In this document: positions 25,956 to 52,580 of the stretch, one piece after another
Numbering within the stretch: position 1 is the stretch's first letter
How the letters are laid out: every line of letters starts with the position of its first letter
Assembly: GCF_017939745.1 (NCBI RefSeq)
Contig: NZ_JAGKQQ010000001.1
Coordinates: 1,240,001 to 1,304,000, forward strand
Origin: Gemmata palustris
GTDB lineage: Bacteria > Planctomycetota > Planctomycetia > Gemmatales > Gemmataceae
Length of the DNA: 64,000 bases
Direction of reading: 5' to 3'
Notes under the pieces: model-generated
What the model was told of the DNA's origin: nothing
What the model saw: only the letters and a program-made list of their open reading frames with translations
Database searches by the model: none
Translations under genes and position numbers: made by a program

Positions 25956-26145
25956 GCTGGAGCCTCCGTGCGCTGGTGAGGGTGGAGATTGTGCCAGAAC
26001 GGGTACCGCGGTGTAAAGCCCGGCTCAAATTGAGCGCGAACGCGCTGCGACAGCGATGGGCTCTTCCGCAAGAAATAATCGTGGAAGCCCCCGGGAGCTT
26101 TGTGCCTCTATTCCCGGGACGGACTTACTTCTGGAAGGTTCAGGC

Positions 26146-28239
26146 ATGGCACACGAACCATCGACCGCGATCCTCGATCCCCTCCGGCGGCTCATTTCGC
26201 GGCAGACCGGCAGCGCGCTGACTGATGCGCAGTTGTTAGAGAATTTCGTTGCGCGGCGCGAAGAGGCGTCGTTCGAGGTGCTCCTTTGGCGCCACGGCGC
26301 GATGGTCCTCGCGCTGTGCAAGCGCGTGCTCCGCGATTCACACGAAGCCGAGGATGCGTTCCAGGCGACGTTTCTCGTGCTCGCGCGCAAGGCCGGTTCG
26401 ATCGGGCGCGGTGAAGCGGTCGCGTGCTGGCTGTACAAGGTCGCGCACCGTATCGCCGTGCGCCTTCGGACGACGGCCGTGAAGCGACAACTCGGGACCG
26501 AATCACCGGACGCTGTTTTGGCCCCAGAAACGCCCGACGACGCGGAATGGCGCGACCTGCGCCCGGTACTCGATGACGAAATCGCGCGATTGCCGGACAA
26601 GTATCGCGCGCCCTTCGTTCTCTGCTATCTCGAAGGGCGCACCAACGAAGAGGCCGCAGCACAACTCGGTTGCCCAAAGGGAACCGTGTTGTCGCGTCTC
26701 TCCCGCGGGCGCGAGCGGTTGCGGGATCGACTCGCACGCCGCGGAGTCGCGCTCACGGCCAGTGCGCTGGCCATCACCCTTTCTCGAAATGCGGCCACGG
26801 CGACCGTTCCGCCCGCACTGGTGCCGACCACGATCAACGTCGCGATCCCGTTCGCGGCGGGCAAAGCGGGAAGTGAACGGGTTCCCGCACACATCGCCGC
26901 CCTCACCAACGGAGTGTTACGCGCGATGACGTTCAGGCACGTTAAGACCGCAGCGCTCGCTCTGGTCTCGCTTGTCGTTCTGGGGATCGGAGTCACCTGG
27001 GCGGCGTTCGACGATGGTGGCGCCCCCGGATCGGTTGAACCTCTTGTTCTGGTCGAAGAGCCGAAGGCACCGCCGACTGCGGACCCCAAAGTTGCGCCGT
27101 CCGTCGAGACCGAGCGGCCCGCTCCGCCCATTCGGGGGCGAGTGACTGATATTGCGAAAGATGGGAAGTCCGTCACCATCACCGGCGTGGCGGGTGCGTA
27201 TGCGTGGTACGGCGGAAACCGCCTCCCAGAAGACCCGGAACCAACGGTGGTGGTCGTCAAATTGAGTGAAAAAACGGTCGTGACTTACCAGGGCGTTGGC
27301 ATGAATGGGGCGAAATTCACGAGAGGCCACGATGCGTATGTGATGTTTGCTGGCGCCATGAAGGATATTGCAGCTACCATCGAGTTCAACGGATCGACAC
27401 AAGTGCAACGGAATCAATCCATTAGCGGTAGCGTCGATGCGGTCGCGGATGATGGTAAGTCCTTCTCATTGGCACAAACGAGCATTCTGGGGCCTTTTCC
27501 CATTCGCCCATATGGTAATGCTAAAATTAGTGTGACGAAGATTGACATCCCATTTGATGACAAAACGGTGCTCACCTTCTCGAACGTCGCGCGGGGTAAG
27601 GCCAAGCTCACACCGAGTCATTACAGCACGGTGTGGTACGCGGACGACGGCCGAACCGCTGGTAAAGTGTTTTTCAATGGCCAGGACCCGGGGGGACGCG
27701 AGGGGAAGCTGCCGGATGTTGCAGGCACCGTCACGCGTGTGGCCGACGACAAGGCCATTGTGGTCGAGGTTCCTCCCAAACTAGCCGCAGAAGCCCCGAC
27801 GCGGGTTGCGGTCCATTTGAATGACAAAACGACTGAAGTGTTTCGTGATGTGCCACTCGACGGCGCGAAAGCCGCTCCGGGCATGCAAGCGCAAGTGTGG
27901 CTCGCGGACGGATCGAAGGACACGGCCGCAAAGGTGACGTTCACCGGGAGCACCCCCGAGCGGTGGGCGATCGTGACCGGCAAGATTGTCTCGGTGGCGA
28001 AGGACGGCAAATCGTTCACGGTGGAATCGCCTCCGGCCAAACGCGGCGACCGGGCGAAACGCACGGAGGTGAAACTCGCCTCCGTGACGAAAGTTACGTT
28101 TAATGGGGTCGGGCCGGGGGAGGCCAAAGTGACGGAAGGACTTAACGTTTACGCTCGGATGCTCGATGACTACCCGGACACTGCCGCCGGTGTCACCTTC
28201 ACGAAAGATGGCTGGCAACCAACAACCCTGTTCTGGTAA
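26146..28239 (+). CDS. ECF sigma factor fused to TM segment and four extracytoplasmic repeats
   Basis: A 697-residue protein. Sigma region 2 (about 35-105: LLWRHGAMVLALCKRVLRDS, EAEDAFQATFLVLARKAG) and region 4 (about 140-195: LPDKYRAPFVLCYLEGRTNE, LGCPKGTVLSRLSRGRERL) are intact. A TM helix follows at about 265-286 (ALALVSLVVLGIGVTWAAF). The outer part holds four repeats of roughly 85-100 residues starting near 330, 426, 525 and 610. Each has a V-x-x-V-A-x-D-G-K-S-type opening and ends in a TAAxVxFxG motif. Fusion of sigma and receptor in one chain is known in planctomycetes. GGAAGG lies 11 bases before the ATG, chosen over the longer open frame. Confidence 0.88.
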   Translation: MAHEPSTAILDPLRRLISRQTGSALTDAQLLENFVARREEASFEVLLWRHGAMVLALCKRVLRDSHEAEDAFQATFLVLARKAGSIGRGEAVACWLYKVAHRIAVRLRTTAVKRQLGTESPDAVLAPETPDDAEWRDLRPVLDDEIARLPDKYRAPFVLCYLEGRTNEEAAAQLGCPKGTVLSRLSRGRERLRDRLARRGVALTASALAITLSRNAATATVPPALVPTTINVAIPFAAGKAGSERVPAHIAALTNGVLRAMTFRHVKTAALALVSLVVLGIGVTWAAFDDGGAPGSVEPLVLVEEPKAPPTADPKVAPSVETERPAPPIRGRVTDIAKDGKSVTITGVAGAYAWYGGNRLPEDPEPTVVVVKLSEKTVVTYQGVGMNGAKFTRGHDAYVMFAGAMKDIAATIEFNGSTQVQRNQSISGSVDAVADDGKSFSLAQTSILGPFPIRPYGNAKISVTKIDIPFDDKTVLTFSNVARGKAKLTPSHYSTVWYADDGRTAGKVFFNGQDPGGREGKLPDVAGTVTRVADDKAIVVEVPPKLAAEAPTRVAVHLNDKTTEVFRDVPLDGAKAAPGMQAQVWLADGSKDTAAKVTFTGSTPERWAIVTGKIVSVAKDGKSFTVESPPAKRGDRAKRTEVKLASVTKVTFNGVGPGEAKVTEGLNVYARMLDDYPDTAAGVTFTKDGWQPTTLFW

Positions 28240-42025: not shown

Positions 42026-44812
42026 TCACTTCTTGGATTTCACTTGGGGGAGCGCGCTCAACATCTTCGTGACGTGGCTCGCGATCCCCTGAACCACGAG
42101 CCGATCTTTTAAAAGAGTGATCCTACCGAACTGCCCGAGTATCTGCTTCAAATCAGCAACTAACTTGTCATCAACGTCCCACTCAATCAGAACCTCAACC
42201 CGTACTAACTCGGTTTTTCCGCTAGTTTCCAGTTCGGCACCTGAAACGGCCCGGACAAGTAACGGGTCCACTTTCTCGTCAGCCAAGATGAGGGTGAAAC
42301 TCTTTTCGCTGCGAATGACGAGGAATCCTTTCGGGATCAGTGCTTCGTTGAGAATGTCGGTGATTTCGGCGATCGTGAACCGCTGGTCCACTTTAGGTGG
42401 TGCGAACGTAAACGTTCCCGTGGGCTTGGAACTGACATTGGCTTTCAGTCCCGTTACAGTCGCGTAGGCGTCGAGCACTTCGGCCCAGGGCGCGTTTTTG
42501 AAGTTGAGTGTGAGCGCCTTTACTTCTGGCAGAACCATGTGTGGATCAGTATCGGGCCGGGCGGTTCTGTCGTTGCCGAAGCGCGGATCGAATCCGGGCG
42601 CTGTTGGTCCGCCCGCGGGCTTTCGCGGATCGAATCCGCCCGGAGGGGTGACCGGGTTGGGTTTCGGGTTCGGGGCCGCTTTTTCGATGTCTTCGAGAGT
42701 TTTGACGATCCGCGCGACGTTCCCGGCCGTGTCGCAGACGACGATGCGATTCCCTCGCGCGAACACGATCTCGCCGAACGGTGACAGGAGTTTGCGGAGT
42801 TCGTCTTTGACGTCTGCCGCGTCTAACACGCGGAGCGGAATAGCAACTTGCACCAGTTCCGTGCGACCGTAGCTCCCGAGGTCTTTCAGCTCGATCTGGT
42901 GAATCATTTTGGCGTCGAGTTTCTCGTCCGCGGGGTGAATGAAGAACGTGAGCTTCCCGCGCACCAGGATCATCTTTTGTTGCATCATCCCTTCGTTGAT
43001 GAAATCGGTAATCTCGGTGAGGGAGAACGTGCGGTTCCCCGGGGTGCAGGTGAATTTCCCGGTGGGTTTCACGGTGGTGACGAGCGAGAGACCGGAGAGC
43101 TTGGAGTACGTGTCGAGCACTTCGTCCCAGGGTGCGTCTTTCACGTTGAAGGTGAACGTCTTGGCACTCGGCAGAACCATGTGCGGGTCGACACCCGGCT
43201 TGGTGTGGAACGGGTCGAGTCCTTCCGCCCCGAATTGCGGGTCCGTGCCGGGTGGTGTCGGCTTGGCCTCTTGTTTCACGATCAACTTCTCCATCTCATC
43301 GACGATCCGGGTAGCGGTTTCGATCTCGTCCGGTGGGCCGACGAGGATTAGTTGATTTTGTGCCGGCAATGCCACCACCTGCAAGCGTCGTGGTGCTATG
43401 AGCGTTTGAATGACTGGGGTTACTTCCTCGGCTTTCCGATTCCTCAACCGTAGCACGCGCGTGGTAGACTCGGCAGGTTCGCCGGCGAGCACCTTCGCGA
43501 GCAGTTTCTGAACGGTCTGTGTGTCCTTTTCTGTCGCGTACACGAGCAGCACGTGGTCACCCGGGACCGGGACGATGGTCACACGCGACTTGCCGAACGC
43601 TTCCGCGAGCGTCTTGGCGGTTTCGGCGCAATCCGCCTTTTTGTCGAGGCGGAACACGCTCGGCTTCTTGGTGGCCGGTTCGCCGAGTTTCACGAGCACG
43701 GATTCGATCTGTGATGTTGTCTTGGCGTCGGCGAAGACGAGCAGTGCTTTGTCTTCTGGAAGGGGCGTGATCGTTGTGGTTCTCGCGTCGAATAGTTTCG
43801 TGAGTGTGGCGGCAGCTTCGCCGCTATCGAGCACGCGCAGCGGAACAACGGTGAGCGCCTTCGGCCCGCTGGTTACGGCGGCCGGTTTCTCCGCCTCTTT
43901 AAGCCCGAGTAATTCCAGCGGGGATTTCGGTTCCGGCGCGGGTTGCGCGCTGGCGTTCGTGAAATGAAACAGACCGACGGCGCTCGCGAGCACCAGTCCG
44001 CAGCACACGATTACGGACGCTACGGCCCGGACGTTTTTCAAGAACATGGCTCTCAATACTCCTTCGGTTGTGTCCGCGGCGCGGCGCGAGATCAGGCCGT
44101 TGGCCGTCGCGCGCACGAGATTATCGATTGCGACCGCGCGAACCGTGTTCGTCACTGTTGCGGGGAGCGTTGCGCTCGCGATACGGTCCGTGAGTGCGGC
44201 CAAGAGCACCCCCGCTGCGGGTGTACCCACGCGCGCCGTCAGGCGAGCCGCGAGCAACTCGCGTGCTCGTGCTAGGCGCCCCGCGACCGTTCCCTCGGGG
44301 CACGCGAGCCGGTGCGCGACCTCTTTGCGCGTGTGGCCCTCAAGGTCGCACAGCACGATGAGCGCCCGGTAGCGCTCGGGCAAGCGGCTCAGTTCGTCGT
44401 CGAGGACCGCGAGCAATTCGTTGTGTTCGTCCGGTGACGGGGCGGGCGGTTCGGTGATTTCTGCGAGCGGCCGGACGCGCGCCGCCCGGCGCGCGTTCGA
44501 TTGCCGGAGCTTGCGGGCCGTGTTGTACGCGACGCCGTGCAGCCACTGCGCGAGCGGGCGCTGCGTGTCGATGGTTGTGGCCCGACGCGCGAGGACCAGG
44601 AACGCGGCCTGAAACGCATCGTCCGCGTCGGTCGCGTTGCCGAGCACGCGCCGGCACACGCCCAGCACCATCGGACCGTGTCGGCGCACGACCGCTGCGA
44701 ACGCGCGCTCGTCCCGCAATCGCACGAAGAGGTCGAGCAACTGGCCGTCGGTGCGGTCCCCGCGGGCGGCTTCTTCGGCGATGGTGTCGAGGATCTGAAC
44801 GACGGTGTTCAC
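42026..44812 (-). CDS. ECF sigma factor fused to TM helix and secretin-like domains
   Basis: A 928-residue chimera. Residues 1-195 are an ECF sigma factor (RRHGPMVLGVCRRVLGNATD, ADDAFQAAFLVLARRAT; region 4: LPERYRALIVLCDLEGHTRK, EGTVAGRLARARELL). A TM helix lies at about 260-281. The outside portion contains repeated secretin N-domain-like units (VVPLRVLDSGEAAATLTKLF, TRVLRLRNRKAEEVTPVIQT). It also contains two copies of a block with the pattern FKNAPWAEVLDAYATVTGLK and FNVKDAPWDEVLDTYSKLSG, each ending in an ITDxxNE motif as in GspD-type N0 domains. The start is GTG at 44812. It likely couples an envelope input to transcription in one chain. Confidence 0.86.
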   Translation of the reverse strand: MNTVVQILDTIAEEAARGDRTDGQLLDLFVRLRDERAFAAVVRRHGPMVLGVCRRVLGNATDADDAFQAAFLVLARRATTIDTQRPLAQWLHGVAYNTARKLRQSNARRAARVRPLAEITEPPAPSPDEHNELLAVLDDELSRLPERYRALIVLCDLEGHTRKEVAHRLACPEGTVAGRLARARELLAARLTARVGTPAAGVLLAALTDRIASATLPATVTNTVRAVAIDNLVRATANGLISRRAADTTEGVLRAMFLKNVRAVASVIVCCGLVLASAVGLFHFTNASAQPAPEPKSPLELLGLKEAEKPAAVTSGPKALTVVPLRVLDSGEAAATLTKLFDARTTTITPLPEDKALLVFADAKTTSQIESVLVKLGEPATKKPSVFRLDKKADCAETAKTLAEAFGKSRVTIVPVPGDHVLLVYATEKDTQTVQKLLAKVLAGEPAESTTRVLRLRNRKAEEVTPVIQTLIAPRRLQVVALPAQNQLILVGPPDEIETATRIVDEMEKLIVKQEAKPTPPGTDPQFGAEGLDPFHTKPGVDPHMVLPSAKTFTFNVKDAPWDEVLDTYSKLSGLSLVTTVKPTGKFTCTPGNRTFSLTEITDFINEGMMQQKMILVRGKLTFFIHPADEKLDAKMIHQIELKDLGSYGRTELVQVAIPLRVLDAADVKDELRKLLSPFGEIVFARGNRIVVCDTAGNVARIVKTLEDIEKAAPNPKPNPVTPPGGFDPRKPAGGPTAPGFDPRFGNDRTARPDTDPHMVLPEVKALTLNFKNAPWAEVLDAYATVTGLKANVSSKPTGTFTFAPPKVDQRFTIAEITDILNEALIPKGFLVIRSEKSFTLILADEKVDPLLVRAVSGAELETSGKTELVRVEVLIEWDVDDKLVADLKQILGQFGRITLLKDRLVVQGIASHVTKMLSALPQVKSKK

Positions 44813-45459: not shown

Positions 45460-48400
45460 TCACTCGTTACCGGGCATCGGGGCGATCTTGATCGACAGCG
45501 GTTCGACCCAGTGCTTGTGGTCCGCGTCGTAGTACAGGTACCCGCGGCTTGCAGGGCCGCGGTACGTGCCGGGAACGTCGCACACCAAGTCTACCGATAG
45601 CGCGATCTTCTGTTCCGGCGCCAGTTCGCGCCAGTAGAGGATCAGTTCGCGGTCACGGGTCTCGAAGTAACTGATCTGGCCCTTTTCGCGCAGGTCGGTC
45701 AGTTGCTTCATGTCGGTCGGGACTTTCATCCCGGCCGGGATGCCGACGATCGCCATCGTCATCCCCTGTCCTTGCTTCTGGCGGTTCTCCAGGGTCACCG
45801 CGAGCGGAACCGTATCGCCCTCGGTGGCTTCGGCTTTGGCCAGCTTCGTGGAGATCTGCACCGCGCACTTCTCCGCGCTCAGCGGGGTCAGCGTCGTGTA
45901 GGTGTAGCTCAGAGCGAACGGGTACGGTTGCTTCGCGGTCGTGACGACTTCCAGTTCGGTCTTACTCCCGAGCTTGAAGACCGCTTCCGAGTTCGGGATG
46001 TCGAGGGCGATTACCTCAACGTCTTTTTCGGTAAACTGGCGCGCGCTGACCACGTTGTCGCCCACGCGCACACTCAGTTCGCCGCTCTCCGCCGGGTGCG
46101 CGTTCTTCTTCGCGAAGAGTGCGAGCGCTTTGAGCGCCATGACGGTCGATTGCGTCGAGCCGAACCCGCCGTACCCACCGCGCTGTTGCGCGATCCACTT
46201 CGTGGCGTCCTTGATCGCCGTGCCGTAGGCCGGGTCGTTGGTCCGCAGCCAGCCGAGGAGTGCCAGGGCAGTCACTTCGATCTCCAGATCGCGCCCGCCG
46301 GACCGGGTGATGCTCGTCACCGCTCCAGTAACCCCGCCGTTCTTGAGGTGCTTTTCCTTCAGTCGGTCGAGCAGTTTGTGGGCGGTTTCGCGGTCGCCGC
46401 GCTGGAGCATCACGTTCGCGACCAGCGCAACGAAGTACGCATCCTTACCGCCGACCGAGTTCTCGTTGAGCGCCTCGGCCTTCAGCGTGGCGATTTCAGT
46501 CTTGAGGTCCAGCTTCTCTTGGTCGTCCGGGTCGCTCTCGACGAGTGCCCAGACGATGTAGGCGTCCACCGTGTGCTTGGGGGCGGAGCCGAAGCTGTGC
46601 CCGTCCGGTCCGCGCTTGAAGCCGCCTTTCCCGTCGCGCCGAGAGAGCAGGTACGCTTGTGTCCGTTGGATCAGCACCGGGTCGACCGGGTGAACCCGGG
46701 CCATGTCCTTGAACTGGAGCAACCCGTAAGCGGTGAGCGCCTCGTGTTGCCGGTCCGCGGCCCCGAACCACTCGAAGCCGTGCTTCGTCCGCTCGGGGGT
46801 GTCCGGGCACTCGAACGAAGTCAGTCGGCCGTACCCCTTATCGAGCAACCCCTTCGCCTTTGCAGCGGCCGCCGGGTTGGTTTGGTTCGTCTGGTTCATG
46901 TAGTCGAGGATCAGCGCGTTCGGGTAGTTCGTGGTCGAGGTCTGCTCGAAGCACCCGTAAGGTTCGCGGAGCAACCCGTCCAGGCCCTTCACGAGATCGG
47001 CCATTGACGTCGGGTACATTTCGAGCCGCACCTGGAGCGAGCCCGGCACCACGTCCTTGGGCAGCGTGATGCTCCCGCGCGCGCGGCCCTTCTCCAGCAT
47101 GTCGCTGACCGAGCCGACACGCGGGAAGCCATCGGGCACGACGCGGATTGACCGCTTGATGATGTCCGGGTCGCCGCCCGTGCTCCGGCCCTCAATCAGT
47201 AGGCTCGCGTCGCCCTGGAGTTGATCCGCGTTCAGGCGCAGGAGCTTGCGGCCCTTCGCATTCGGTGAGAGTTCGATCGTCTCCTGGAGCGGCCCTTTGG
47301 TCTTGAACCCGGTGGCCGTCGTGTTGAACGTCACGCTCCGTGCCACGTCGCTGTCGTTGGTCACGCGGATCGGTGTCTCCACCGTGTCCGTGTGCGAAAT
47401 TTCTAGCGGCAGTTTGGGATCGAGGCTGAACGGCTTGCGCGCTTCGATGGTCGTGGTAATTGCCCCAATGCGCCCGTCGAGCGTGTGCCCGGCGACGAGC
47501 ACCTGGTACCGCGCGATGTCGTCCGAAAGCTGGAACTCGATCGTGGACTTGCCGTTCTCGGGCAGCACCAGAACCGGGTGCCAGTACACGGTTTCCGTGA
47601 AATCCGAACGCACTTCACCCAGTTGCGGGTCTCGCTCGTGGGCGTACTCACGCACCATGAACGGCATAATCACGGGCAGAGCCGACCTACGACCGTCGCT
47701 TTTGTGATTGAATCCTTCACTCCCTAGTTTTGCGCTACGTCGGAGTGCGGCGGCAGCGACGGCGACGCGGGCGTCGTAGTCCACGCTACCTCGATCACGG
47801 CTAGTGCCGTCGTTGGCAAACATCCCACCTTTCGAGGGAATGCCGTTCCTGCCATTCCCGAGGCGCGGGGAAGGCTTGCCGCCTGACCCCGGGGGGGCTC
47901 CGCCGGTCGCAGGCATCCCCACAGCGGGTAAGCCTGGGGGCGCGGCTTTCGGTCCCGCCGGAGCACCGGGGGGACGTAAAGGTGTGTCTAAGTCGGGCAT
48001 CGAACCGGAATCGTCTACCGGTCTAGGTGTTCGTGTTCCTCGGCCTCCTTGCACAGCCTCAATCCGTGGCACTGGTCCTGAGACGGTTTGGTCGACCATG
48101 CCACCCGGAGGCTTGATCGAGCTGCCGACGAAGGAGAACGTCGAGTTCGCGTTGGAACCCATGTTGCTTGACAGCGACACCAGCACTCCGCAAATAGCCA
48201 GCGTGGTGATGCCCGCGATGTACGGGCGCAGGCGCCCGGCCGGTTTCGTTGCGGTCGCGGACATCAGGCGCGAGACCACAATGAAGATCACGATCGCAAC
48301 CAGCGCGGCGATCAGCAGCGGCAGCAGCGCCGCACCGAACCGTTCGTACCGTTCCTTGTAGGCCGATAGTGCGCCTTGCGCCTCGGTCTTCAGTGCCTGG

Positions 48401-51213
48401 GCCGCCGAAACGTGCGCCTGGGCGTCCGCTAGCTTCTGAGTCAGCGTTGCGGGGATCGCGCTCCACTGTGTTTCGGTCGTGGCCGTTCGGATGCGGGCCG
48501 TTTCCATTTGCGGCATGAATTCCGCGTTCACGCGCTGCTTTTCGAGTTCGAGTAACTGGAGCGGTGCAGTCGGGCGCTGACCGTGCGCGACCAGCATCGT
48601 GTTCACGTCCGTTCGGTCCACCGGTTGAGGAGGCGGCACGTCCTGTTCGGCGAACCGGCGCCAGCCCTGCGTGCCCAGGAGCAGGTCAAGAGCTACGGCC
48701 GCTTTCGGGTGGTCCGTGAGCAGGAAGTCCGCGTGCTCGAGTTCGGCCGAGTTCTTCACCTCGCCCGACAACAGGAAGTGTGTGGGGAGCAGGCGATCGT
48801 TCTTGTTGTCCGCCATCGTGATAACGCTGCGGTTTACCACGCCCACCATCAGCACCGCGGGAGTTGGCGTGCCCTTTTCTGTAGTCGCGGACAGATCAAG
48901 ACGAACTTTGCCGCTGGGCGTGTACCGGGCTCGCTCCGGGTTCGCGCTCAGAACGAGGCGCTCACCGGGACCGCGGAAGACGAGCCGTTCGGATCGGGGA
49001 ACGAGCGTCGTTTGGCCGGCATCATCGGCTCGTTCCTCGAACACGGTGACGCGCGTGACACCGCCCGCGGTGTCGTCGCTCTTGAGCCAGACTTCTGTGG
49101 GTTTGTTCGCATTCAGGGTGACCTTCTGTTGCGCGATGAGCCGCTCACGGACATACGCGCCCACGTGTACCGTCTTCGGCCCGCGAGCGGTTTGCAGTTG
49201 CACGCGGATCGTGCCGCCCTTTTCGGTCACGGCATCGAGTGCGGTGAGCGCCACACCGTCGGGCTTCACTTCGGGCAGCGGAAACCCGTCCTTGGTCGGC
49301 GCGGTGATGCCGCTGGGCGACGTGAGCTTGAGGAAGTAATTCGTTCCCGCTTTCGGCGTCAGCGTGAAGACGCCGTGCCCGCGATTGACGCCCGGGTTCT
49401 CGGGGTCCGTGAGCGTGCTCACTTCTGCAAGCGTATTTGTGCCGTCGGTGATGATACCTTTGAGATCGGCAGGTTTAGCGCTTGGGGCGGGCGTGCGGAC
49501 CATGAAGTACACGCGACCGGGCACGCCTTCGACCATGTCCCCACCTTCGGGGAAGAACTCGACGCGGAGGTTCTTCGTTACGAGCGGAATCGGTCGGACG
49601 ATCGTTTCAGAATCGCTGCCGTCGCGAATGTTCACGCTCAGAGTGGCTGCGGGGGCCGCGCCCGGAGTGACCTTCTCGAAGACTTCAGCCGGGAGCTTAA
49701 AGCGCACGTCCAGGAAGACCTTCGTTCCGCTCGCATCGGTGATGAAGCGCGAATCCGGTTGTTGGAAGAAGGCCGAGCGGTCCGTTGAGGCGACGACGTT
49801 GGCGGTCGCGTTCTTCATCGGTCCGCCGGCGGTGCGCGAAACATCGATCCGCGCCTGCACGAACTCGTTGGGACCGTATGACTTGCCATCGAACTCCAGT
49901 TTCTTCTCGAACGTATCCGGGACGTACCGGTTCACAATGAACTTGCGCGTTTCGAGGAGCACTTCTTTGCCCGTTTCGGCGCTTGCCTCGAAGAGATCGA
50001 GCTTGTATTCACCGCCAGGCGCGTCCGATGCCAGCGTGTGTTCGCCGACCCCGATTCCGCGGAGCGGCTTGTTATCCGGTCCCAGGACGGGGCGAATGTC
50101 TTGGAGTAGTCGGCCGTTGCCCTCGTCGAGCGCGGTGACGGCGTCGCCCGGGTCGCGCAGTCGGAACTTCAGGTGCAGGTCCGTTCCCGGCGGGCGGAGC
50201 GTGGAGCGATCCAGCGTGAGCGAGCGGAACCGGATCGTTTCGCCCGGCTTGTAGAGCGGCTTGTCCGTGACGAGGTGCGTGACGAATACCGGGCGCGCGA
50301 GCGGCAACCGTTCGGCCAATACGCTCTTGCGGTCGTCGGTGAATGCGGTCACTTCGAGGAAGAGATCGGAGCCGGGCTTCACCTTCTCCCAGAACGCGAC
50401 CGGGAGCTCGAGCGTCGTGGCGCCGACGGGCTTGTCGTGCGTTTGACGCAAGAGTTCCTGGTCCTTCGCGTCCTTCACCACGACGTCCATCTTTTGTGGC
50501 CGACCGATCGCGCCGTGCCGCAGCGTTTCGATCTGCCACTTGTTCGGCGCACCGGGCTGAATGTGCGCGGGGCCGGTCAGCCGGACGACGAAATCCTTGT
50601 CCTCGATCGCTTTGCGGGCGCTCTCGTAGGCCGCCTGATACTGGGCCGTGAGCGCGGCTTCCGCCGCGAGTGCGGCATCCATGTGCTTCCGCGATTCCCT
50701 TATGGCTTCCGCTTTTTCGACCTCGACGCGCGCGACCTCGTCGAGTTGGGCCTGGAGCGCGAGCTGCTTGTCGGCGACCTCGCGTGAGCGCGAATACCAG
50801 CCGTAATACTGCGATCCGGCCAGTGTGCCGAGCGTGCCGACGACGGCCAGCCAGACCACCAACCTGCGGGAACGTGGGCGGCGCATGACGTTCTCCTGCT
50901 GTTTGGGTGAGGAATTAGGTGAAACGCGCGCGGATGGCACTTCGGCCGGCGCACGCGGAACGGGCGCCGGCTTCGGGCCAGGCGCTGGGGATTCGGGCGG
51001 CGCCTGGGGGAGCGCGCGGGGTTCGGGGAGACCGGCCACGTGGCCGATGAGGTCCGCGAAGAAGCTCATGAACCGGATGTAATGCTCCTCGGCCTCGGGG
51101 TGCATGAGGACGAGTTCTTCCAGCCGGTGGAGCTGCTCCGGGCTGATCGTCTCTTCGCAGAGGGCGTCGAGGAGCGGCTGTAGCTCCGCAATAACGTCAG
51201 ATTCGGGGGTCAC
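45460..51213 (-). CDS. anti-sigma-like domain fused to alpha-2-macroglobulin
   Basis: A 1917-residue protein. Residues 1-60 (ELQPLLDALCEETISPEQLH, PEAEEHYIRFMSFFADL) match the short N-terminal domain that planctomycete anti-sigma-like membrane proteins use, followed by a Pro-rich linker and one TM (about 118-137). The outside part is a bacterial alpha-2-macroglobulin: MG2-like (FVTHLVTDKPLYKPGETIRF), A2M core, thioester motif GCFEQ with Cys1421, and the helical thioester domain with repeated ALTAYGLLQF and VEVTALALLGWLRTND. Two extra hydrophobic segments lie near 950-1010. The GTG start overlaps the sigma gene stop by 4 bases. The frame runs on to 51915 but that part is antisense/out-of-frame sigma and is excluded. 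No PBP1C partner is nearby. Confidence 0.9.
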   Translation of the reverse strand: MTPESDVIAELQPLLDALCEETISPEQLHRLEELVLMHPEAEEHYIRFMSFFADLIGHVAGLPEPRALPQAPPESPAPGPKPAPVPRAPAEVPSARVSPNSSPKQQENVMRRPRSRRLVVWLAVVGTLGTLAGSQYYGWYSRSREVADKQLALQAQLDEVARVEVEKAEAIRESRKHMDAALAAEAALTAQYQAAYESARKAIEDKDFVVRLTGPAHIQPGAPNKWQIETLRHGAIGRPQKMDVVVKDAKDQELLRQTHDKPVGATTLELPVAFWEKVKPGSDLFLEVTAFTDDRKSVLAERLPLARPVFVTHLVTDKPLYKPGETIRFRSLTLDRSTLRPPGTDLHLKFRLRDPGDAVTALDEGNGRLLQDIRPVLGPDNKPLRGIGVGEHTLASDAPGGEYKLDLFEASAETGKEVLLETRKFIVNRYVPDTFEKKLEFDGKSYGPNEFVQARIDVSRTAGGPMKNATANVVASTDRSAFFQQPDSRFITDASGTKVFLDVRFKLPAEVFEKVTPGAAPAATLSVNIRDGSDSETIVRPIPLVTKNLRVEFFPEGGDMVEGVPGRVYFMVRTPAPSAKPADLKGIITDGTNTLAEVSTLTDPENPGVNRGHGVFTLTPKAGTNYFLKLTSPSGITAPTKDGFPLPEVKPDGVALTALDAVTEKGGTIRVQLQTARGPKTVHVGAYVRERLIAQQKVTLNANKPTEVWLKSDDTAGGVTRVTVFEERADDAGQTTLVPRSERLVFRGPGERLVLSANPERARYTPSGKVRLDLSATTEKGTPTPAVLMVGVVNRSVITMADNKNDRLLPTHFLLSGEVKNSAELEHADFLLTDHPKAAVALDLLLGTQGWRRFAEQDVPPPQPVDRTDVNTMLVAHGQRPTAPLQLLELEKQRVNAEFMPQMETARIRTATTETQWSAIPATLTQKLADAQAHVSAAQALKTEAQGALSAYKERYERFGAALLPLLIAALVAIVIFIVVSRLMSATATKPAGRLRPYIAGITTLAICGVLVSLSSNMGSNANSTFSFVGSSIKPPGGMVDQTVSGPVPRIEAVQGGRGTRTPRPVDDSGSMPDLDTPLRPPGAPAGPKAAPPGLPAVGMPATGGAPPGSGGKPSPRLGNGRNGIPSKGGMFANDGTSRDRGSVDYDARVAVAAAALRRSAKLGSEGFNHKSDGRRSALPVIMPFMVREYAHERDPQLGEVRSDFTETVYWHPVLVLPENGKSTIEFQLSDDIARYQVLVAGHTLDGRIGAITTTIEARKPFSLDPKLPLEISHTDTVETPIRVTNDSDVARSVTFNTTATGFKTKGPLQETIELSPNAKGRKLLRLNADQLQGDASLLIEGRSTGGDPDIIKRSIRVVPDGFPRVGSVSDMLEKGRARGSITLPKDVVPGSLQVRLEMYPTSMADLVKGLDGLLREPYGCFEQTSTTNYPNALILDYMNQTNQTNPAAAAKAKGLLDKGYGRLTSFECPDTPERTKHGFEWFGAADRQHEALTAYGLLQFKDMARVHPVDPVLIQRTQAYLLSRRDGKGGFKRGPDGHSFGSAPKHTVDAYIVWALVESDPDDQEKLDLKTEIATLKAEALNENSVGGKDAYFVALVANVMLQRGDRETAHKLLDRLKEKHLKNGGVTGAVTSITRSGGRDLEIEVTALALLGWLRTNDPAYGTAIKDATKWIAQQRGGYGGFGSTQSTVMALKALALFAKKNAHPAESGELSVRVGDNVVSARQFTEKDVEVIALDIPNSEAVFKLGSKTELEVVTTAKQPYPFALSYTYTTLTPLSAEKCAVQISTKLAKAEATEGDTVPLAVTLENRQKQGQGMTMAIVGIPAGMKVPTDMKQLTDLREKGQISYFETRDRELILYWRELAPEQKIALSVDLVCDVPGTYRGPASRGYLYYDADHKHWVEPLSIKIAPMPGNE

Positions 51214-51800
51214 GCGCGGCCCTCCTGGGTGAGCGTCTTCTGGACGCACTGCATGAGCGCTTCGCGGACCTTGGCCAGTGCCTTGTACACCGCGTCCACG
51301 GAGCGCCCGACTTGTTCCGATGTGGATTGCGTGGTCGCGCCGTCGGCGAACCGTCGCGTGAGGAGATCGCGGTCCGTGCCCGGGAGCTTTTCGATACATG
51401 TCGCGAGTGCGTCCCGGCGTTCGTCGAGTTTCAGCGCATCCGCTTGCCCGGCCGCGGTTTCGGCGATGCGCTTCAGAAAGATCTGACTCAAACGGGCCTG
51501 CGCGCGGTTCGACTTCTTGTTGAAGTCGAGCACCTTGTGGTACGCGACCCGGCGCGCCCACGCCAGGAACTCCGTCGGGGGCTCGGTCGCATCGAACTTG
51601 TCCCACATCGTGAGGCTGGTTTCCTGCAGCACGTCGTCCGCGTCCGCACGGTTCGGGAGCAGCGTGAGGACGTAGGCGTACAGGCGGCGCTGGTTCTGGA
51701 GAAACAACCGGAGGAACAGTCGGTTCTTGTCCGGGGTCGGGTGGTCGGCTTCGTCCGGCTCTGCGGGCGAGACCGATCCGTAGTCGGCGTCCACTGCCAT
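51210..51800 (-). CDS. ECF-type sigma factor (Rhodopirellula/Verrucomicrobium family)
   Basis: A 196-residue sigma factor. Region 2 reads LFLRLFLQNQRRLYAYVLTL, then RADADDVLQETSLTMWDKFD and FLAWARRVAYHKVLDFNKKS. Region 4 reads LPGTDRDLLTRRFADGATTQ and QVGRSVDAVYKALAKVREAL. This fits the planctomycete/verrucomicrobial gvs1-type family, whose genes are usually followed by an anti-sigma-like membrane protein. Here that partner is the alpha-2-macroglobulin fusion, which overlaps it by 4 bases. The ATG at 51800 is chosen over the frame start at 51992. Confidence 0.9.
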   Translation of the reverse strand: MAVDADYGSVSPAEPDEADHPTPDKNRLFLRLFLQNQRRLYAYVLTLLPNRADADDVLQETSLTMWDKFDATEPPTEFLAWARRVAYHKVLDFNKKSNRAQARLSQIFLKRIAETAAGQADALKLDERRDALATCIEKLPGTDRDLLTRRFADGATTQSTSEQVGRSVDAVYKALAKVREALMQCVQKTLTQEGRA

Positions 51801-51896: not shown

Positions 51897-51951
51897 GAAC
51901 TTTTGGGTGTGGCACTGGTGCGATCCGTATCCGCTACTTAGTTGACACCGA

Positions 51952-51982
51952 AACCGCGGATTGGAAGAAAAATTCCGCGGTT
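51952..51982. promoter_or_regulatory. 9-bp inverted repeat upstream of the sigma/A2M operon
   Basis: AACCGCGGA (51952-51960) and TCCGCGGTT (51974-51982) are perfect inverted copies around 13 bases. The spacing of 22 bases between repeat centres fits a dimer-binding operator. It lies between the divergent sigma gene and the small gene at 52158. Rest of 51801-52157: no other gene seen. Confidence 0.45.
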
Positions 51983-52469: not shown

Positions 52470-52580
52470 AAGAGCGTTTCACCGCAGAGGGCACAGAGAG
52501 CGCGGAGAAAGGCCGGATTGAAAACGAATCCTTTCGGCCTTTCTCCGCGCTCTCTGTGCCCTCTGCGGTGAAACGCTCTT
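52470..52580. repeat. palindromic intergenic element, family A copy 2
   Basis: A 111-bp element with perfect 45-bp inverted arms (52470-52514 and 52536-52580) and a 21-base loop GGATTGAAAACGAATC.... Arms and loop core match the element at 45082-45197, 7.3 kb away. It is non-coding and lies in the gap before the helicase. Confidence 0.88.

Follow-up and report, generated by a model that had tools for sequence, protein, structure and literature searches.

Class I membrane anti-sigma factors, among them RsiW, MucA, RskA and the PupR/FecR proteins, combine a cytoplasmic helical domain with a transmembrane (TM) segment and an ectodomain outside the membrane, and are encoded next to a gene for an extracytoplasmic function (ECF) sigma factor. 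At their N-terminus a bundle of three helices is joined by a fourth, and approximately 56% of members have an Hx3Cx2C zinc motif (PMC7406223). Alpha-2-macroglobulins (A2Ms) of animals and their relatives CD109 and the thioester-containing proteins (TEPs) contain macroglobulin (MG) domains, an A2M domain and a thioester domain (TED) with a GCxEQ motif. The A2M of E. coli (ECAM/YfhM) is described as an inner-membrane-anchored periplasmic protein with a CxEQ motif, in which a cut in the bait region frees a disordered segment from its tether and leaves the thioester exposed (PMC4498604). Planctomycetes, with their WD40-fused ECF sigma factors, are a lineage rich in unusual ECF wiring (PMC8567305). 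Here we analyse a locus of Gemmata palustris, within a window of 64,000 nucleotides (contig NZ_JAGKQQ010000001.1; coordinates below are those of the window), in which the gene for an ECF sigma factor overlaps one encoding an A2M that carries a putative anti-sigma domain at its N-terminus. This bacterial relative of the blood protease trap looks able to switch on its own gene. To our knowledge the cellular role of bacterial A2Ms has been little tested; with this one coupled to a transcription switch for which a promoter is predicted, a reporter can reveal what the protein senses. A literature search covering few subscription journals found no paper on an A2M–anti-sigma fusion or on an A2M selenoprotein.

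Our preferred reading, to which we assign a probability of about 0.68, is that the protein is a one-chain transmembrane anti-sigma factor with an A2M ectodomain, expressed jointly with its cognate ECF sigma factor, and that disturbance of a linker in the chain frees the sigma factor so that more of the trap is made.

The sigma factor and the A2M chain

Both genes lie on the minus strand and share the four bases GTGA, which hold the stop codon of the first and the start codon of the second:

51210..51800, minus strand: ECF sigma factor gene, 196 aa from the ATG at 51800, with Pfam and NCBIfam matches
45460..51213, minus strand: predicted membrane anti-sigma/alpha-2-macroglobulin fusion gene, GTG start at 51213, stop at 45460, 1917 aa

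The sigma protein is short and contains only regions 2 and 4 (Pfam Sigma70_r2 at 33-100 and r4_2 at 131-183 of the 197-codon frame), which places it among the ECF sigma factors, and it scores 144.7 bits against NCBIfam TIGR02989 (cut-off 124.55). The ATG at 51800 and its surrounding sequence recur in close relatives. Compared with the planctomycete ECF proteins that carry fused domains, this sigma factor is plain and the sensor resides on the anti-sigma partner.

Three Pfam families exceed their curated cut-offs in the 1917-aa chain, namely TED_complement (PF07678; 1403-1698, E 7.9e-32), A2M (1208-1292, E 2.6e-12) and MG2 (313-361, E 1.3e-9), and together with the CxEQ motif these identify it as an A2M; bMG10, which served as a test for a C-terminal MG/receptor-binding domain, reached 17.7 bits, below its cut-off of 26.2. 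No other TED match occurs in the 9.2-Mb genome. The best matches among solved sequences are A2M and CD109 chains, the alignment to human A2M picking up again at residue 1191. A predicted model of residues 600-1720, of medium quality (mean predicted local distance difference test score, pLDDT, 70; predicted template modelling score, pTM, 0.42) matches the CD109 fold with E 1.4e-29 and has CD109, A2M, TEP and complement as its closest folds, whereas the E. coli A2M ranks only 43rd, behind the animal forms. The order along the chain is a three-helix tail (1-59), a linker, TM1, MG domains, a long helical stretch that leads into TM2, a basic loop, TM3, a disordered segment (1017-1189), MG7 and the TED:

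51037..51213, minus strand: residues 1-59, putative anti-sigma domain with helices 6-19, 25-37 and 39-59 (AlphaFold block, pLDDT 81-97)
50818..50862, minus strand: residues ~118-132, TM1, predicted helix (pLDDT ~60)
48166..48330, minus strand: residues 962-1016, membrane hairpin of TM2 (962-980), a short basic loop and TM3 (998-1016), from Kyte-Doolittle values and model helices
47647..48165, minus strand: residues 1017-1189, disordered linker at the bait-region position (pLDDT <50 over model positions 418-590)
46120..47007, minus strand: residues 1403-1698, TED with thioester motif GCFEQ at 1420-1424 (Cys1421), Pfam PF07678

Kyte-Doolittle peaks of TM2 and TM3 are 3.27 and 1.76; the hydrophobicity of TM1 falls below the threshold in the window and in L131, and exceeds it in 83 of the 85 sigma-linked loci described below. 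The disordered linker, some 170 residues that follow the membrane hairpin, ends where the alignment to human A2M restarts, a point which we take to be the end of the animal bait region, and this suggests that the bait region has been replaced by hairpin and linker. The chain would differ in this respect from animal A2M, CD109 and TEP, since its bait position is taken up by helices, the membrane hairpin and the disordered linker, and also in its cytoplasmic tail, which putatively signals. From class I anti-sigma factors it differs in having a whole A2M as its ectodomain and two further TM helices. The positive-inside rule and the pattern of TM segments suggest that tail and hairpin loop lie inside and the remainder, including the A2M part, outside.

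A preliminary description of this DNA, made from the sequence alone, had proposed an ECF sigma factor overlapping a 1917-residue chain by 4 bases, and coordinates, Pfam and TIGR02989 all agree. It had also proposed a thioester-bearing A2M with the motif GCFEQ at Cys1421, which the MG2, A2M and TED matches and the position of the motif bear out, and an external location for the A2M part, which the layout favours. What it did not include is the minus-strand orientation, the hairpin where the bait region would be, a promoter belonging to the operon and how widely the family extends.

The N-terminal tail and its linkage to a sigma factor

We searched 41 related genomes and then 397 Planctomycetia genomes, 155 of which gave matches with E no higher than 1e-20. 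The 121 loci examined (the window, L042-L081 and L120-L199) were drawn from among the matches listed and represent this subfamily rather than A2Ms in general, weak matches from the 397-genome search (about 1e-20 to 1e-29) having been left out. Eight sigma-less loci cut on the 5' side were subtracted to give 113 informative loci; L010, a duplicate of L145, was dropped before counting, and L164, which is apparently broken upstream, was kept. Start codons were assigned by rule (taking the earliest one downstream of the sigma stop, or in the frame), TM segments by a Kyte-Doolittle threshold, and sigma genes with a profile made from hits of the same loci, which misses divergent sigma factors; family labels were entered by hand from the genome search results.

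Upstream of the A2M gene and in the same orientation, 85 of the 113 informative loci carry an ECF sigma gene; they represent 79 genomes from five families of the Planctomycetia. The two genes are separated by at most 210 nt in 82 of these 85 loci, 24 of which share the same 4-base overlap; by the start rule the distance is 510-623 nt in L061, L069 and L076. Among the linked sigma factors that were compared with family models, eight outside the window type pass no listed model other than the superfamily TIGR02937, and two of the window type pass TIGR02989. It could be argued that sigma factor and A2M are functionally unrelated genes that happen to be neighbours, as ECF genes are numerous (in the genome of the window, sigma region 2 is matched at least 135 times, with 150 of 192 candidates scored). 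At this density a sigma neighbour would nevertheless be rare by chance, and the linkage observed across the five families, the shared overlaps and the joint exchange of sigma and tail described below led us to reject this explanation, which we regard as extremely improbable.

Linked and unlinked members of the subfamily also differ in their A2M chains. A TM pair at the hairpin position occurs in 79 of the 85 linked loci (the remaining six show one hydrophobic peak there), compared with 8 of the 28 unlinked ones. The tail preceding TM1 measures 74-160 aa in 83 of the 85 linked loci, TM1 not being called in the other two, whereas unlinked tails measure 5-64 aa, except in L045 (115) and L052 (111, although its frame holds an L047-type start later on) and in two loci without an assigned length. 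The zinc motif Hx3Cx2C, a feature shared with class I anti-sigma factors, is present in 43 of the 85 linked tails and in none of the 28 unlinked tails, and Pfam zf-HC2 is matched by 33 of the 77 linked tails that were scanned. A profile of 25 hand-chosen zinc tails retrieves the solved chains 3hug_B (2.2e-5), which we take to be an anti-sigma chain, RsrA (8.9e-4), RsiW (0.0045) and DdvA (0.01), together with a weak match to a CHAT protein (0.27).

The tail of the window's own protein lacks Hx3Cx2C; class I members without this motif are known, so its absence does not exclude membership. Three helices are confidently predicted, and upon structural re-alignment the four best rows are all anti-sigma factors (PupR, RsiW and MucA twice; Z 6.5-5.2). 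As in class I, the gene adjoins that of an ECF sigma factor, both in the window and in the linked loci, and the two are probably transcribed together. Several points weigh against this assignment. The domain search proposed in the preliminary description succeeds for the rest of the chain (MG2, A2M and TED) and fails for the tail (residues 1 to ~115), for which a separate Pfam scan at E 0.01 gave no match and the Pfam and NCBIfam scans of the whole protein gave none either. The fourth helix of class I is not seen, Foldseek E-values for the tail are 0.9 or worse and thus not significant, and according to the alignment tool's own warning, Z values under approximately 13 for helical bundles may merely reflect a common arrangement. 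Finally, when window-type and zinc-type tails were compared with hhalign only the TM stretch was aligned, so that we rejected the two as a single family by profile comparison, and the link between them rests on fold, position and co-exchange. We also rejected the tail as a widespread anti-sigma domain, as a profile of window-type tails finds only itself in the window's genome.

The co-exchange is apparent from an identity matrix computed for the 77 linked loci in which the thioester region is intact. The partial rank correlation between sigma and tail, given the core, is 0.675, a value reached in 0 of 999 permutations; the matrix ignores tree structure, and this count is therefore a guide and not a probability. 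The corresponding values are 0.12 for core and tail given sigma, and 0.34 for sigma and core given tail. For example, L163 is 72% identical to the window over the MG7/TED core and 60% over residues 600-1720, its core being as near to the window as those of the same-type copies L054, L145 and L149, but its sigma factor and tail are only 20% and 18% identical. A second switch is observed in L045 and L006, close A2M relatives with another sigma-like gene (L045:4212-5024 and L006:3-920) and a third kind of tail; L045 was scored as sigma-less, since the divergent gene upstream, in which only Sigma70_r4 was detected, is missed by the sigma profile. By these comparisons, sigma and tail are exchanged together under a constant ectodomain, and a tail that varies with the neighbouring sigma factor rather than with its own chain behaves as a cognate anti-sigma domain should. 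This repeated exchange represents a natural domain-swap test of sigma/anti-sigma specificity. The zinc motif of the relatives, the matches to solved anti-sigma factors, the predicted fold and the co-exchange make it very probable that the N-terminus is an anti-sigma domain, as the preliminary description had supposed, and we are highly confident that the A2M chain is coupled in this way to the neighbouring sigma factor.

Predicted promoter, proposed mechanism and the role of the thioester

A candidate promoter lies upstream of the sigma gene:

51940..51966, minus strand: predicted ECF promoter, -35 TTCCAAT, 13 nt, -10 GTCAACT

Nine of the ten loci with the window's sigma type have the pattern TTCCAAT-N12/13-GTCAACT near the sigma gene, and the exact pattern is found in 10/10 genomes with this sigma type compared with 0/10 others and 0/20 in a backward control. 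In one genome (G002, L046) it lies approximately 1.3 kb further upstream, which counts against our reading, with an open reading frame in between (L046:8688-9458, minus strand) whose product resembles an IS3-type integrase; this frame may separate the operon from its promoter there. In the window's genome 51940-51966 is the sole site with 13-nt spacing and at most one mismatch, and genomes G005 (L211) and G286 (L212) each contain one further exact site with no clear target on inspection. A wider regulon was considered and rejected: allowing one mismatch at 13-nt spacing, four extra sites appeared in the ten genomes of this sigma type (three in G016 and one in G005), compared with five in the ten control genomes and three in the backward control. 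Among seven other sigma groups tested, three have promoter-like paired boxes above shuffles (6/11, 6/7 and 5/6 loci), the best box match of the five TED-less loci seems due to close kinship, and the remaining groups show little. ECF sigma factors are usually positively autoregulated (PMC8103513), and with a pattern nearly confined to the operon this suggests that the main output of the sigma factor is probably the operon itself. Self-induction of the operon is accordingly a component of our reading that we hold to be likely, if less firmly than the coupling of tail and sigma.

The same near-confinement of the promoter pattern is compatible with a different role for the tail, as a feedback gauge in which newly made, unassembled A2M holds the sigma factor and thereby sets how much trap is made, without an external signal being relayed along the chain. 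The exchangeability of tail and sigma while the ectodomain stays would also suit such a gauge. A membrane anti-sigma domain joined to a large conserved ectodomain is, however, the usual layout of a sensor, and the presence of the hairpin in nearly all linked loci suggests that the ectodomain communicates with the membrane, so that we consider a gauge rather unlikely.

In the mechanism we favour, residues 1-59 would hold the sigma factor beneath the membrane in the resting state, while MG domains, disordered linker and TED would face outward and the chain would re-enter the membrane as a hairpin at the bait position. The ectodomain would be disturbed, most likely by a protease cutting the exposed linker, whereupon the half of the chain containing the TED would swing or leave and the exposed thioester would covalently tag the attacker. 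The sigma factor, freed either via a conformational change or by follow-up proteolysis of the anti-sigma tail, would then transcribe mainly its own operon and yield more trap. Of these elements, the pairing of the genes, the likeness of the tail to anti-sigma domains, its co-exchange with sigma, the topology and the promoter pattern come from computation; sigma binding, use of the promoter, trigger, release and covalent trapping are inferred. By analogy, the precedent of the E. coli A2M fits, without demonstrating, a cut in the linker as the trigger, for which we judge the chances to be about even. A bolder version, in which the system is a complement-like, self-inducing trap with its bait threaded through the membrane, so that a single cut both springs the trap and frees the sigma factor, and in which some sigma-less relatives form a selenoester, is put forward tentatively and we think it somewhat less likely to be correct than not.

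The distribution of the thioester bears on the nature of the signal. GCxEQ is retained in 77 of the 84 assessable linked relatives; L069 was left out of this count, since its TED is missing because the contig ends early and cuts the chain, and is hence no loss. Of the seven without it, five are paralogues that lack the TED (L061, from the window's own genome, L076, L077, L078 and L081) and end within or soon after the start of MG7, while retaining the sigma gene, a zinc-type tail and one or two hydrophobic segments in the middle of the chain; the other two, L195 and L198, have lost the cysteine (GPFEQ and GGLEQ, respectively). The wiring can therefore exist, and may signal, without a thioester, which weighs against our reading. 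The preliminary description had envisaged a protease-damage sensor that signals to transcription: the anti-sigma wiring of this proposal is very probable, but the thioester trap is not needed for it, and the retention of the thioester on which the idea depended is general without being universal.

These relatives favour an alternative with identical wiring and a signal other than proteolysis. In this case the MG ectodomain would sense binding or covalent capture of a surface, in the manner of complement and insect TEPs, or envelope stress, leaving the thioester as an optional effector; that the nearest folds are CD109, A2M, TEP and complement is in keeping with this. The retention of GCxEQ in the great majority of linked loci and the disordered segment at the bait position argue in the opposite direction, and we regard a non-proteolytic signal as a minority possibility, slightly ahead of the feedback gauge. 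Linkage without a TED has its converse in second paralogues of the window's genus such as L047, which keep hairpin and thioester but have a short tail and no sigma gene that we could find; taken together, the TED-less linked copies and the sigma-less L047-type copies suggest that sensor and switch are separable modules.

Some of these loci deserve further mention. The paralogue in the window's genome (L061:5939-10330; G000:C1 ~7515938-7520329) exceeds the zf-HC2 cut-off, has its sigma gene 571 nt upstream and contains MG domains and no TED. L195 and L198 come from G231 and G149, genomes that also carry an A2M with a single TM segment and either TGA or Cys at the thioester position. The window's genus also contains separate A2M genes with the motif GCVEQ (L072-L075), which have short tails and no visible sigma gene, L073 being cut on the 5' side; in our reading these are of the ECAM type.

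Predicted selenocysteine in sigma-less relatives, and neighbouring genes

In five relatives for which no sigma gene was found upstream, an in-frame TGA replaces the thioester cysteine codon, and both frame and homology continue beyond it:

L066:10193-10195, plus strand: TGA codon
L070:5981-5983, plus strand: TGA codon
L071:9135-9137, plus strand: TGA codon
L122:7063-7065, plus strand: TGA codon
L127:989-991, minus strand: TGA codon

The 60 nt following the TGA fold into a hairpin in all five (z -4.9, -4.9, -2.3, -2.3 and -2.0), compared with z values from -1.49 to +0.97 in eight cysteine homologues of the same clade. When placed on the L066 structure, the TGA set pairs in 92% of cells with a covariation of 0.267, each value being equalled in 1 of 500 shuffles, whereas the cysteine set pairs in 62.5% (447/500) with a covariation of 0.045 (440/500) and double changes at two pairs; taking the reference structure from L066 favours the TGA set in this comparison. 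The selA gene is present in all five TGA genomes and absent from 3 of the 15 others searched, and selB and tRNA-Sec exceed their cut-offs in all three TGA genomes tested. A TGA at the cysteine position, a hairpin after it and at least selA from the selenocysteine machinery were found for each of the five, and selenocysteine is predicted at the thioester position in these proteins, possibly forming a selenoester. Against this, folds of 50 nt, in which the outer stem is cut, gave z values of only -1.3, -1.6 and -0.3 in three of the five TGA loci, and double changes in the TGA set (three pairs) do not beat the shuffles (57/500 as high). L066 and L070 are near-identical, so that the five cases are not independent. 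If true, a thioester built with selenocysteine would put selenium to an unusual purpose, bond chemistry instead of redox catalysis; the main text of two recent works on prokaryotic selenoproteins (PMC13188914 and PMC12013277) mentions neither macroglobulin nor thioester.

Two related observations concern the distribution of the machinery and of the codon. selA, selB and tRNA-Sec also occur in the window's own genome (G000), whose A2M uses cysteine, and likewise in G022, G028, G029 and others. TGA and Cys forms co-occur in a single genus (G231 and G149, both g30).

Five other genes in the window were scanned. Two of them encode sigma proteins (a fusion with Secretin_N and a second long one), and the products of the other three are an amino-acid permease, a DEAD-box helicase and an AcrB-type pump. 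PBP1C, whose gene accompanies bacterial A2Ms of the ECAM/YfhM type and the absence of which had been remarked upon in the preliminary description, is not among these five, no genome-wide search for it having been made. The fusion lies downstream of the A2M gene (42026-44812, minus strand), where a 928-aa frame joins Sigma-70 regions 2 and 4 to two Secretin_N stretches. The long sigma protein (26056-28239, plus strand) has 727 aa, with sigma-70 regions 2 and 4 and a long C-terminal extension. Between the predicted sigma promoter and the helicase gene, a long near-perfect inverted repeat was spotted by eye at ~52472-52579, which is possibly the remnant of a mobile element.

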